A DNA stretch of 64,000 nt, taken from Haloprofundus salilacus. Its GTDB lineage: Archaea > Halobacteriota > Halobacteria > Halobacteriales > Haloferacaceae. A program made the translations under genes and the position numbers. Shown here piece by piece: positions 48,675-51,823 of this stretch (the first letter of the stretch is position 1; each line of letters opens with the position of its first letter). A model generated the notes under the pieces. The model was not told the origin of the DNA and did not search any database. It saw nothing but the letters and a program-made list of their open reading frames with translations. The stretch spans positions 1,550,001 to 1,614,000 of the forward strand of contig NZ_CP083723.1 in assembly GCF_020150815.1 (NCBI RefSeq), in the 5' to 3' direction.

Positions 48675-48905
48675 TCAGGAGAGGGCGACGCCGAGATCTT
48701 CGAGCGCCCACTGGACGACTTTCGCCTCGACGACCGCCCGCGGCTCGGCGTCGTCGTCGGCCAGCGCGCGGTCGCTCTTCGCGAGCAGTCGGCGCTCGGT
48801 TTCGGTCTGGTCGGGTTCGTCGCGCGTCGCGTTCAACAATGCCTCGAAATCCTCCCGCAGGTCGAAGGAGGCGTAGGCGACGTTACAGCGGGGCAGCGGA
48901 CTCAT
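48675..48905 (-). CDS. Small acidic protein, function unknown
   Basis: A 76-residue protein (YASFDLREDFEALLNATRDE; ERRLLAKSDRALADDDAEPR; VVEAKVVQWALEDLGVAL) that reads as all-helical. It contains one cysteine near the start. Its ATG 48905 lies inside the 3' end of the preceding small gene, 23 bp before that gene's last base, so the two are translated from one mRNA. I recognise no family. Confidence 0.65.
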   Translation of the reverse strand: MSPLPRCNVAYASFDLREDFEALLNATRDEPDQTETERRLLAKSDRALADDDAEPRAVVEAKVVQWALEDLGVALS

Positions 48906-49104
48906 ACCGATTCGACACGAGGTCGGTCACCGTCTCCCAGTCGGAGGCGCAGAAGTGAATCGACACCTCGCCGACGATGTCGCGCCACGCGATTGGGCCG
49001 CCGTTCCGCATCAGCGTCACCGCTCGCGGCGGGAGGTCGAGTCGGGTGACGGTCTCCGGCGTACCGCAGAGGCAACACGGTTTCTCGATTTTGCCCGTGT
49101 ACAT
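48883..49104 (-). CDS. Small cysteine-containing protein, possible zinc binder
   Basis: A 73-residue protein. KPCCLCGTPETVTRLDL gives a C-x2-C-type knuckle near the start, and HFCASDWET has a single cysteine later, so one zinc site is possible. The middle, RDIVGEVSIHFC, is beta-like. ATG 49104 is chosen because the upstream extension is arginine-rich. It overlaps the following small gene by 23 bp. It may regulate or chaperone a partner; nothing firmer can be said. Confidence 0.65.
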   Translation of the reverse strand: MYTGKIEKPCCLCGTPETVTRLDLPPRAVTLMRNGGPIAWRDIVGEVSIHFCASDWETVTDLVSNRYESAAPL

Positions 49105-49192
49105 ACGCGTCGTTGGGACTGCTCGGATTTGGACGTGTCGAGAGAACGGGACGGCGGTCACCCTCGTTCTTCGTCGCGTCACTCACCCGCCG

Positions 49193-49543
49193 TCACTGCG
49201 CCGGCGACTCGGCGTCAGCGGCGAGCCACTCGTCGGCCCACGACTCTATTTCCTCGAACACCGGGCAGAGCGACTGTCCCTTCGGGGTGAGACTGTAGTA
49301 CGTCGCCACCGGCGCGTCTTCCTCCAGTCGACGGTCGACGAACCCCATCTCGCGGAGGTCGTCGAGCACGCGCGAGAGCGTGCGCGAACTCGCGTCGGTC
49401 GAGCGTTTCAGTTCGTTGAACCGCTTCTCTCCCTCTTGGAGGTCGTGCAGAACGATGAGTCGCCACTGCGAGCCGATCTGTTCGAGCGAGTCGATGACCG
49501 GACAGACCGCCAGCGGCTTCTCGGTGTCGAGTTGGGATGACAT
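49193..49543 (-). CDS. HxlR-family regulator with Cys-Pro sensor motif
   Basis: A 116-residue HxlR/DUF24-type winged helix: CPVIDSLEQIGSQWRLIVLHDLQEGEKRFNELKRST and SSRTLSRVLDDLREMGFVDRR. C14 lies in a C-P motif at the position of the redox cysteine of the bacterial quinone sensors YodB and CatR, and a second cysteine, C93 (SLCPVFEEIE), is near the C-terminus. ATG 49543. It is divergent from the DoxX-VOC-flavin reductase operon and shares with it a symmetric promoter holding a 10-bp inverted repeat, one arm at each transcription start, which suggests that it represses both directions until oxidised. Confidence 0.88.
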   Translation of the reverse strand: MSSQLDTEKPLAVCPVIDSLEQIGSQWRLIVLHDLQEGEKRFNELKRSTDASSRTLSRVLDDLREMGFVDRRLEEDAPVATYYSLTPKGQSLCPVFEEIESWADEWLAADAESPAQ

Positions 49544-49547
49544 CGGT

Positions 49548-49609
49548 GTTACCTGGTCACGTCTATGTCCGCGAACGGATATATAGGTTCGTATCAAACA
49601 CCAGGTAAC
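49548..49609. promoter_or_regulatory. Symmetric divergent promoter with two operator half-sites
   Basis: GTTACCTGGT (49548-49557) and its exact complement ACCAGGTAAC (49600-49609) flank a single TATA-like GGATATATAGG (49577-49587). The 13-mer GTTACCTGGTCAC (49548-49560) is itself nearly palindromic (one mismatch), so each arm can bind a dimer. Starts predicted 25 bp either side of the TATA centre, near 49556 and 49608, fall within the arms. Binding would block transcription in both directions. The likely binder is the HxlR protein. Confidence 0.6.
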
Positions 49610-49612
49610 GTG

Positions 49613-49696
49613 ATGCAACCACGTTTCACCACGATAGCAGAAACGGCGGACCGTTCACTGACCGACATCGGCGAGATGCCGGAGGGCAACCGATGA
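49613..49696 (+). CDS. 27-codon leader ORF overlapping doxX
   Basis: An ATG at 49613 opens a 27-residue frame, beginning MQPRFTTIAETADRS and ending EMPEGNR, whose TGA (49694-49696) overlaps the doxX start as ATGA. It sits at the predicted leaderless start of the operon, so it would be the first frame ribosomes meet, with doxX reached by termination-reinitiation. It could be a leader peptide or a small protein; no stretch of repeated codons points to attenuation. Confidence 0.4.
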   Translation: MQPRFTTIAETADRSLTDIGEMPEGNR

Positions 49697-50121
49697 CGCT
49701 GCTGCAGAGCGCCGTCGCCTTCGACGGGGCCGCCGCGGGACTTGCGTTCCTTCTCGGCCGCGTCCTCTTCGGCGCGGTACTCGCGTTCAACGGGCTGAAC
49801 CACTTCCTCAACGGCGACCAGATGGTCGGCTACGCGCAGGCCAAGGGCGTTCCCGCGCCCGGACTGGCCGTCCCGTTCACGGGGGGGATGTTGCTGTTCG
49901 GCGGCATCGGCATCGCCGTCGGCTTGCTCCCGACGCTCGCCGCCGGGGCGCTCGTCGTCTTCCTGCTCGTGACGACGCCGTTGATGCACGACTTCTGGGC
50001 CGCGCCCGAGGGGCAACAGCAGAACGAGATGATAAACTTTCTGAAGAACGTCGCCATGCTCGGCGGCGCGCTCGTGTTCCTCGCGCTCGGCGCGGTCGGA
50101 TCGTGGCCGTACGCGCTCTGA
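49693..50121 (+). CDS. DoxX-family membrane protein (CatD-like)
   Basis: A 142-residue protein with four hydrophobic segments: AGLAFLLGRVLFGAVLAFNGLNHF, GLAVPFTGGMLLFGGIGIAVGLL, TLAAGALVVFLLVTTPLMHDFW and FLKNVAMLGGALVFLALGAVG. The LNHFLNG and FLKNVAMLGG segments are DoxX-family hallmarks. In Bacillus, the DoxX-like CatD is made with the dioxygenase CatE against catechol and quinones. ATG 49693 overlaps the leader ORF; the VOC gene follows after 53 bp, with its own TATA-like GTTAACC at about 50144-50150. Confidence 0.88.
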   Translation: MTLLQSAVAFDGAAAGLAFLLGRVLFGAVLAFNGLNHFLNGDQMVGYAQAKGVPAPGLAVPFTGGMLLFGGIGIAVGLLPTLAAGALVVFLLVTTPLMHDFWAAPEGQQQNEMINFLKNVAMLGGALVFLALGAVGSWPYAL

Positions 50122-50174
50122 ACGACCCCGAATCGCCAGTACCGTTAACCGAGCTTCACCCTAACAAACCACCA

Positions 50175-50660
50175 ATGACCGACGCACCACCGACCACCGG
50201 ACTGCACCACGTGACGAATATCTGCACCGACATAGAGGAGACCAAGGCGTTCTACGAGGACGTCCTCGGCTGGCACACGGTGAAGATGACCCAGAACTAC
50301 GACGACCCGGGGACGCCGCACTACTACTTCTCCTCGACGCCGGAAGGAGAGCCGGGAACGAACGTCACCTACTTCGAGTACCCCGACTCGCGCGGCGTCC
50401 CCGGCCCGGGGGCGAGCCACCACTTCGCCTTCGGCGTCGAGGACAGAAAAACCCTCGAAGAGTGGCGCGAACACCTCGTCGACCACGGGGTGCGCGTCTC
50501 GCAGATGAAAAACCGGACGTACTTCGAGAGCATCTACTTTACCGACCCCGACGGCCTCGTCTTTGAACTCGCCACGATGGGACCGGGCTTCACCTACGAC
50601 GAGGACGAACCCGGAAGCGGCGAAATCGACCCGTTCGAGAAGGGCTACGGGGGCGATTGA
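50175..50660 (+). CDS. VOC-family extradiol dioxygenase-like protein (CatE/MhqO-like)
   Basis: A 161-residue single VOC unit. It aligns by eye with the first half of MhqO/LinE-type ring-cleaving dioxygenases: GLHHVTNICTDIEETKAFYE, VLGWHTVKMTQNYDDPGTPHYYF and EPGTNVTYFEYPD. Candidate metal ligands are H11/H12, H82/H83 (ASHHFAFGV) and E131 (LVFELATMGPGF), the His-His-Glu pattern of extradiol enzymes. Full-length relatives have two such halves; this one would dimerise. It ends directly against the flavin reductase ATG. Catechol or hydroquinone cleavage is the inferred role. Confidence 0.85.
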   Translation: MTDAPPTTGLHHVTNICTDIEETKAFYEDVLGWHTVKMTQNYDDPGTPHYYFSSTPEGEPGTNVTYFEYPDSRGVPGPGASHHFAFGVEDRKTLEEWREHLVDHGVRVSQMKNRTYFESIYFTDPDGLVFELATMGPGFTYDEDEPGSGEIDPFEKGYGGD

Positions 50661-51245
50661 ATGGAGGGCGCTCCCGACGCGTTCGGCTCTCCCTATCGGT
50701 TGCTCGCCGGTTCAGTGGTCCCGCGCCCCATCGCGTGGGTGAGCAGTCGCAGCGAGGACGGCGTCGACAACCTCGCACCGTACAGTTTCTTCAACGTCGT
50801 CACGCCCGACCCGCCGGTCGTGATGTTCTCGCCGGTCGGCGTCGGCGAAGACAGAAAAGACACGACAGAGAACGTCCTCGCCACCGAGGAGTTCGTCGTC
50901 CACATCGTCACCCGCAACCTCGCGGAGGCGATGAACGAGACGAGCGCGACGCTCGAACGCGGCAACAGCGAATTCGATCACGCGAAGTTAGAGAAGGTAG
51001 AGGCAACTACCGTCGACGTCGCCCGGGTCGCCGACGCGAAAGTCGCCTTCGAGTGCCGCCTCTACGACGCCCAGGAAGTGGGCCGGTCGACGATGATACT
51101 CGGCGAAGTCGTCCACGCCCACGTCGCCGACGAACTGCTCACCGACGGGAAGATGGACGTGACGAACCTCGACGCCGTTGGCCGTCTGTCGGGCAGTCAG
51201 TACGCGACGACCGACGAGCGGTTCTCGCTCGAACGACCGCCGTGA
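50661..51245 (+). CDS. Flavin reductase-like FMN-binding protein
   Basis: A 194-residue FMN-binding split-barrel protein: SPYRLLAGSVVPRPIAWVSS, NLAPYSFFNVVTPDPPVVMF and EFVVHIVTRNLAEAMNETSA are family signatures. ATG 50661 follows the VOC stop with no gap. It may supply reduced flavin or reduce quinones in the same stress pathway. A short C-terminal extension (YATTDERFSLERPP) completes it. The decayed SRPBCC gene begins immediately after it on the other strand. Confidence 0.9.
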   Translation: MEGAPDAFGSPYRLLAGSVVPRPIAWVSSRSEDGVDNLAPYSFFNVVTPDPPVVMFSPVGVGEDRKDTTENVLATEEFVVHIVTRNLAEAMNETSATLERGNSEFDHAKLEKVEATTVDVARVADAKVAFECRLYDAQEVGRSTMILGEVVHAHVADELLTDGKMDVTNLDAVGRLSGSQYATTDERFSLERPP

Positions 51246-51264: not shown

Positions 51265-51669
51265 TCAGACGACGAGTCGCTCGATTCGTCGCAGCGCGCT
51301 CGCGCAGACGACGCAGTAGCCGGCACCGACGAGCGGTATCTCGAAGCCGACGCGACATCGATTCTCGCAGATCGGTTCGAGGCGGTGGCCGATCGCCGGA
51401 ACGCCCGCGACGCGCCACGTCCAGCGGTACCGCCCTCTCCCCTCGTCGGCGTCGAACGACTCCACCTCGAACGGTACCCGAACGCCGAGAGCGGCGACGC
51501 GGAGGTTCCGGTCGTCCCCGCCCGAATCCGCGCGTCCTGGGGGTCGACCGCCGCGACGGTCGGTCCCCAGTCGGGTCAGTGACGCGTCTCGACGAGCAGG
51601 CTCCACACCCGGTCGGCAGGGGCGTCGACAACGCGACTGACGACGAGGCGAAACCCGTCCGGCGTTCAT
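51265..51669 (-). pseudogene. Decayed SRPBCC (polyketide cyclase-like) gene
   Basis: Two frames together recreate one SRPBCC protein. The N-terminal part reads VVSRVVDAPADRVWSLLVET then R-H-stop-P-D-W-G-P-T-V: TGA at 51576-51578 stands where the family has tryptophan (TGG). After AAVDPQDARIRAGTTG the frame shifts near 51505-51515, and the rest continues in another frame as RVAALGVRVPFEVESFDADE, YRWTWRVAGVPAIGHRLEP and AGYCVVCASALRRIERLV. No good start codon precedes the first frame either. The gene is dead by at least two lesions. Confidence 0.75.
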
Positions 51670-51823
51670 CGGACCGTCGCCTCGCTTCGGGTCACGGCCT
51701 CCCTTCGACCACCGGTCGGAAAGCCCCGTCATCGGGCCGTTAGCGTCAGACTATCGCGACAGTAGGAGTCGATATAAGGACATAAGTATGGTATTGAGTG
51801 TTATTATTTCCTCCTGGAAAGCG

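Follow-up and report, generated by a model that had tools for sequence, protein, structure and literature searches.

Background

In Bacillus subtilis, the catDE operon answers to CatR and YodB, repressors of the HxlR/DUF24 family with a conserved N-terminal cysteine; it encodes the DoxX-like protein CatD and the ring-cleaving enzyme CatE, a catechol 2,3-dioxygenase. Two CatR boxes lie at the catDE promoter (PMC6212828). The mhqNOP and mhqED operons of the same organism combine DoxX, an MhqO-type dioxygenase and a flavoenzyme of the PF00881 nitroreductase family. Their regulator, MhqR, is of the MarR type without a known thiol switch (PMC6798810). The QsrR regulon of Staphylococcus aureus places dioxygenases, flavin/quinone reductases and a nitroreductase under a YodB-family repressor. 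For haloarchaea, the thiol-based oxidative-stress regulator that we met in the literature is OxsR, of the TrmB family, and we found no literature description of haloarchaeal units that join HxlR, DoxX and a dioxygenase. Here we analyse such an arrangement, apparently undescribed before, in Haloprofundus salilacus: within a 64,000-nucleotide stretch of contig NZ_CP083723.1 (positions 1,550,001 to 1,614,000; hereafter the window), a gene for an HxlR-type regulator (hxlR) stands opposite genes for a DoxX-family membrane protein, a VOC-family protein (voc) and a flavin reductase (flvR). We read it, with a probability of about 0.7, as a locally controlled electrophile-detoxification unit, in which a thiol-switch repressor would govern a hydroquinone-cleaving operon of the mhqNOP/mhqED kind.

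The initial annotation of this DNA had described positions 49193-51245 as a catDE-like module, with hxlR on the minus strand opposite the other three genes on the plus strand. The layout is as it was described, with Pfam matches to all four products, and the catDE analogy applies to the regulator, which is of the catDE/yodB kind; it fails for the enzyme, which belongs with the MhqO hydroquinone type and not with the catechol 2,3-dioxygenase type of CatE. By analogy, the unit is best regarded as a hybrid, in which catDE-type regulation (HxlR/DUF24, DoxX) is combined with mhqNOP/mhqED gene content and a half-size dioxygenase. With catDE it shares a repressor with a conserved N-terminal cysteine, a DoxX-like protein, a putative ring-cleaving dioxygenase and a promoter at which a single regulator would have two boxes, but the predicted haloarchaeal enzyme is half-size and of the MhqO/PcpA type, and regulator and operon diverge around a single symmetric promoter. 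No Fur box and no second DUF24 regulator was noticed at the locus, no search having been aimed at either. Like mhqNOP/mhqED, the unit sets DoxX beside an MhqO-type dioxygenase and a flavoenzyme (a dienelactone-hydrolase-family protein, DLH, or a carboxylesterase in other genera); unlike them, it has an HxlR regulator, a half-size dioxygenase and a flavoenzyme of family PF01613. It also resembles the QsrR regulon in the family of its repressor and the kinds of enzyme encoded, except that QsrR targets are dispersed and the haloarchaeal unit is compact.

Results

A half-size dioxygenase candidate

The best solved relatives of the VOC protein are 1zsw and MhqO (3oaj; E=1e-32), followed by PcpA (2e-17), and MhqO was the first or second best in every search. 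The profile of the VOC protein gives 148-150 bits to MhqO and 1zsw, compared with 51 to FosB and 24-28 to catechol 2,3-dioxygenase structures. Metal-site and second-sphere positions can be aligned with those of the PcpA/LinE hydroquinone 1,2-dioxygenases. Residues H12, H83 and E131 align with H11, H227 and E276 of PcpA, its metal ligands, and H11, H82, R114 and Y121 align with H10, H226, R259 and Y266, its second-sphere residues. In an alignment of 24 VOC orthologues and 3 diverged paralogues, H12, H82, H83 and E131 are invariant, and the conservation of H11 is limited to the orthologues. The pairs H11/H12 and H82/H83 and the residue E131 are found where the initial annotation placed them; of its label for these motifs, MhqO/CatE-like, the first half is borne out and the second is not, and MhqO/PcpA-like is the better description. 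It had also tied its reading to the company that the VOC protein keeps, and the protein does fall with ring-cleaving dioxygenases, not with glyoxalases or Fos proteins. Two other identities were considered and rejected: that of a glyoxalase or fosfomycin-resistance protein on the grounds of NCBIfam matches far under the cut-off, the 51 bits of FosB against the 148 of MhqO, and structure, and that of CatE because catechol 2,3-dioxygenases score near background.

Standard MhqO, PcpA and LinE enzymes have two VOC domains, that is, four modules; the window protein has 161 amino acids and two modules. Judged from its sequence, it is a half-size relative of these hydroquinone dioxygenases and not a standard member of the group. 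Against five two-domain haloarchaeal enzymes of the MhqO type, its first half scores 95-145 with module 1 and at most 42 with modules 2-4, and its second half scores 164-211 with module 4 and 65-73 with module 2, and thus the half-size protein retains both metal-site modules. An AlphaFold2 model of the protein (pLDDT 81) has 1zsw and 3oaj as its top Foldseek matches, with a TM-score of 0.78 by query length over some 300 columns and a root-mean-square deviation of 5.5-6.4; we read this long alignment of a predicted structure as one that skips the middle modules and matches modules 1 and 4. A half-size VOC chain annotated as ring-cleaving is also found in Acinetobacter, the homogentisate 1,2-dioxygenase 9u42, which is 29% identical to the window protein over the region aligned by Foldseek. 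We know of no HxlR context for 9u42.

For the flavin reductase, whose ATG (50661) directly abuts the stop codon of voc (50658-50660), the best solved relatives are 3bpk (E=2e-37) and the 2-nitrobenzoate nitroreductase 4z85 (E=1e-29). No solved relative was found for the DoxX protein. By its sequence the window protein is a member of the DoxX family, to which MhqP and CatD also belong.

The regulator and its putative operators

YodB (5hs7) is the top solved relative of the window regulator (E=4.4e-15), and HypR (YybR), QsrR and HxlR itself also match. Cys14, which lies in a Cys-Pro motif as initially annotated, aligns with the N-terminal cysteine of YodB; its conservation, on which that annotation had made its reading depend, is complete (66/66 distinct orthologues). 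A second cysteine is present in 63 of the 66, at position 93 in 24 (three of them with a further cysteine in the tail), in the C-terminal tail in 36 more and at position 90 or 101 in three. YodB is inactivated through the intersubunit disulfides Cys6-Cys101'/108', and Cys5 of QsrR is the site of quinone alkylation (PMC6798810). The architecture of the window protein would fit a thiol switch.

The region between hxlR and doxX holds two copies of a putative operator, GTTACCTGGT and, in inverted orientation, ACCAGGTAAC, which lie 52 base pairs (bp) or about five helical turns apart and flank the near-palindromic sequence CGAACGGATATATAGGTTCG. The first copy extends to GTTACCTGGTCAC, matching 12 of the 13 positions of the palindrome GTYACCNGGTRAC. 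Among 61 hxlR orthologues from outside the genus, the paired motif (at most 4 mismatches) was seen 25 times against an expectation of 0.2, mostly at a spacing of 50-52 bp. The pair accompanies 19 of the 23 hxlR orthologues that are linked to the module, compared with 4 of the 13 that are not (p=0.003); among these four, one lies opposite a nitroreductase gene (L172) and another has a DoxX-like gene nearby (L158).

The same palindrome also occurs away from hxlR. It stands 5' of VOC or DoxX-VOC genes away from hxlR as GTTACCTGGTAAC in Halogranum rubrum (L013) and in L222, as the variant GTCACCTGGTGAC in L034 and as GTCACCGGGTGAC in L029; no such palindrome was found in L043, L040 or L042. The operator, beyond position alone, therefore likely ties such VOC and DoxX-VOC genes to HxlR, which would bind there. 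The exact sequence GTTACC[AT]GGT has five occurrences in the window's own genome, two of which belong to the locus described here; with one mismatch allowed, there are 23 operator-like places compared with 7 in a reversed control. A wide HxlR regulon in this genome was considered and rejected, the three extra exact sites not being at the starts of related operons.

Further observations concern these sequences. A one-mismatch operator (C1:3102735), suggestive only, lies just 5' of a second single-domain VOC gene in the same genome (L104, C1:3102241-3102747), whose product of some 208-220 amino acids is a relative of VOC proteins encoded next to hxlR in L010, L017 and L141; it is possibly a second member of the regulon. 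The element GTTC[CG]CGGACA (window 49567-49577), which lies between the operator closer to hxlR and the TATA box, is kept almost unchanged in relatives; neither the operator nor the TATA box accounts for it, and it could be the site of a further factor. A perfect palindrome of the operator, with the identical TGTCCG context downstream, also stands ahead of a gene for a LUD-domain protein in a different haloarchaeal genome, G032 (L221, 1501-2268); this gene is possibly a further HxlR target.

Distribution and gene substitution

The VOC protein is encoded at 46 loci of named archaeal records, most of them with hxlR divergently upstream and DoxX between, and in 62 of 292 haloarchaeal genomes (one per species), representing 13 of 77 genera. 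The flavin reductase follows voc in Haloprofundus, Halogranum, Halalkalicoccus, Natronocalculus, Haloparvum and others. The initial annotation had proposed a search of haloarchaeal genomes for this neighbourhood, and the unit is found across several families of haloarchaea, with DoxX and/or a ring-cleaving dioxygenase opposite hxlR. Most of the haloarchaeal genera sampled have a close hxlR orthologue. Within 4 kb, a DoxX or ring-cleaving VOC gene accompanies 23 of 36 hxlR orthologues from outside the genus, compared with 4 of 24 loci of hxlR paralogues (Fisher p=0.0005), the latter being the next-best hxlR matches of the same genomes and not a random sample. The recurrence of the locus and this excess of linkage over paralogues together argue that the arrangement is not due to chance.

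Elsewhere the position of voc is taken by larger genes. In Haladaptatus halobius and Halococcus dombrowskii the genes opposite the hxlR orthologue encode DoxX, a ring-cleaving dioxygenase of full size and a DLH; in Halobaculum they encode a ring-cleaving dioxygenase and a DLH together with a VOC protein. A full-size dioxygenase is also opposite hxlR in L148, L155, L162 and L174. The half-size VOC protein therefore stands where other units have an MhqO-type enzyme.

Apart from this unit, the genome of the window encodes a full-size MhqO-type dioxygenase whose gene is followed by one for a carboxylesterase of family PF02230; this mhqED-like pair (L103, 3307-4919; C1:3060806-3062418) lies next to a superoxide dismutase gene. 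No HxlR operator was found ahead of this operon.

Table 1. Features of the hxlR-doxX-voc-flvR unit (positions in the window)
Feature	Position	Strand	Evidence
hxlR, DUF24/HxlR winged-helix regulator, 116 amino acids, Cys14 and Cys93	49193-49543	-	PF01638 E=3.2e-21, 75 bits (cut-off 20.8); closest solved relative YodB
Putative operator copy 1, GTTACCTGGT, near expected hxlR transcription start	49548-49557	.	Inverted repeat; kept at 50-52 bp spacing in relatives
Putative shared core promoter, CGAACGGATATATAGGTTCG, near-palindromic, TATA box legible both ways	49572-49591	.	Conserved in orthologous intergenic regions
Putative operator copy 2, ACCAGGTAAC, inverted copy of copy 1, near expected doxX transcription start	49600-49609	.	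Inverted repeat; conserved pairing in relatives
GGAGGG, putative Shine-Dalgarno-like site 5' of doxX	49681-49686	+	Sequence
doxX, DoxX-family membrane protein, 142 amino acids	49693-50121	+	PF07681 E=3.1e-12; divergent from hxlR in many genera
voc, whole gene, VOC protein, 161 amino acids	50175-50660	+	PF00903 E=1e-19
First half of the VOC protein, matching module 1 of the MhqO type; predicted metal ligand His12, second-sphere His11, Thr14	50175-50378	+	Module scores, PcpA alignment
Second half of the VOC protein, matching module 4 of the MhqO type; predicted metal ligands His83, Glu131; second-sphere His82, Arg114, Tyr121	50379-50660	+	Module scores, PcpA alignment
flvR, flavin reductase / FMN-binding split-barrel protein, 194 amino acids	50661-51245	+	PF01613 E=3.6e-25

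Discussion

In the mechanism that we propose, a reduced HxlR dimer would occupy the two operators, on one face of the DNA and on either side of the shared TATA box, and would in this state repress hxlR as well as the doxX-voc-flvR operon. HxlR would be released once an electrophile, quinone-like or oxidising, modifies Cys14 or leads it to form a disulfide. The VOC protein would then be made as a half-size Fe(II) dioxygenase of the MhqO/PcpA type that cleaves the hydroquinone ring, the flavin enzyme may supply the hydroquinone substrates of this dioxygenase by reducing quinones or similar acceptors, and the site of DoxX action would be the membrane, where it might be a partner that interacts with quinones. 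That quinones are both signal and substrate is our inference. The sharpest form of this scheme, in which a minimal hydroquinone dioxygenase of modules 1 and 4 only is placed under a thiol-switch HxlR that closes a single TATA promoter, active in both directions, from a pair of operators separated by five helical turns, is put forward tentatively, at somewhat under even odds.

Several observations weigh against a dedicated quinone-detoxification unit. Some hxlR orthologues adjoin heme-synthesis or unrelated genes, and close orthologues in L139, L143 and L205 (Halomicrococcus, Haladaptatus) have hemH/hemG as neighbours and not DoxX or a dioxygenase. Three of the 66 HxlR orthologues have a single cysteine only. 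Two congeners (L005, L055) and L048 have no DoxX in the unit; since none lies between hxlR and voc in the two congeners, DoxX is dispensable to the unit. Lastly, the N-terminal cysteine is found throughout the HxlR/DUF24 family, including hypochlorite- and formaldehyde-related regulators, so that Cys14 is compatible with an oxidant or an electrophile and does not fix a specificity for quinones. One could also picture a general unit against thiol oxidants (hypochlorite, hydrogen peroxide) or aldehydes. Its HxlR would sense oxidants or aldehydes of the methylglyoxal kind, and its VOC protein would act, like a glyoxalase or thiol transferase, on gamma-glutamylcysteine adducts. Such a unit would suit the presence of HypR (YybR) and HxlR among the regulator's relatives, the membership of glyoxalases and Fos enzymes in the VOC family, the millimolar gamma-glutamylcysteine of haloarchaea (PMC7278568) and the modest increase of a ring-cleaving dioxygenase gene of Haloferax volcanii in oxidative stress (PMC12482152). 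We consider it unlikely, given that the VOC protein scores 148-150 bits with hydroquinone dioxygenases and no more than 51 with glyoxalases and Fos proteins, keeps both the first- and second-sphere residues of PcpA, and has its slot taken elsewhere by full-size MhqO-like enzymes.

Another possibility is catabolism, the operon degrading a specific natural aromatic compound (hydroquinone or homogentisate-like) for growth or pathway turnover under a ligand-responsive HxlR. The description of the single-domain homologue 9u42 as a homogentisate 1,2-dioxygenase and the DLH gene beside the full-size version in other genera speak for this, but the unit is without other genes of a ring-cleavage pathway (decarboxylase, hydratase, CoA steps), its regulator is of the cysteine-sensor type with an invariant Cys14, and DoxX with a dioxygenase is the pattern of a stress unit; we regard catabolism as a still less probable explanation than the oxidant or aldehyde unit. 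It would be very surprising if the genes were mere neighbours without a common function, HxlR controlling itself and DoxX only. While hxlR is nearly universal in the sampled genera, compared with 62 of 292 genomes for the VOC gene, and DoxX beside hxlR without any VOC gene is common, the same operator precedes VOC and DoxX-VOC operons away from hxlR, the VOC and flavin reductase genes abut in several genera, and the VOC protein is replaced by full-size dioxygenases.

If the electrophile-detoxification reading is right, the quinone-stress logic of the bacterial cat and mhq systems would be at work in archaea, and the unit may be the first quinone/electrophile-sensing regulon defined there. It would also contain a minimal form of hydroquinone dioxygenase, an enzyme that normally has four modules, two of which share the active site, and this half-size form would be either an ancestral homodimer or a stripped-down version of the two-domain enzyme. 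The locus supplies a named candidate sensor cysteine, the sequence of a putative operator, the operon that HxlR would control and a prediction of what the enzyme does, and each of these can be tested in tractable haloarchaea.

Neighbouring genes

On the other side of hxlR, on the minus strand (48675-49182), lies a conserved uncharacterised gene whose product starts with MYTGK and has a CCLC motif, and which adjoins hxlR in many genera. In the window it is divided into two overlapping frames, compared with a single open frame in L005, L052 and L222; the split is a frameshift, either real or a sequencing error. Downstream of flvR and convergent with it, a minus-strand gene of the Polyketide_cyc2 (SRPBCC) family (51265-51720) is decayed, with an internal stop and a change of frame, and is intact in Halogranum and Halorubrum (L013, L022).

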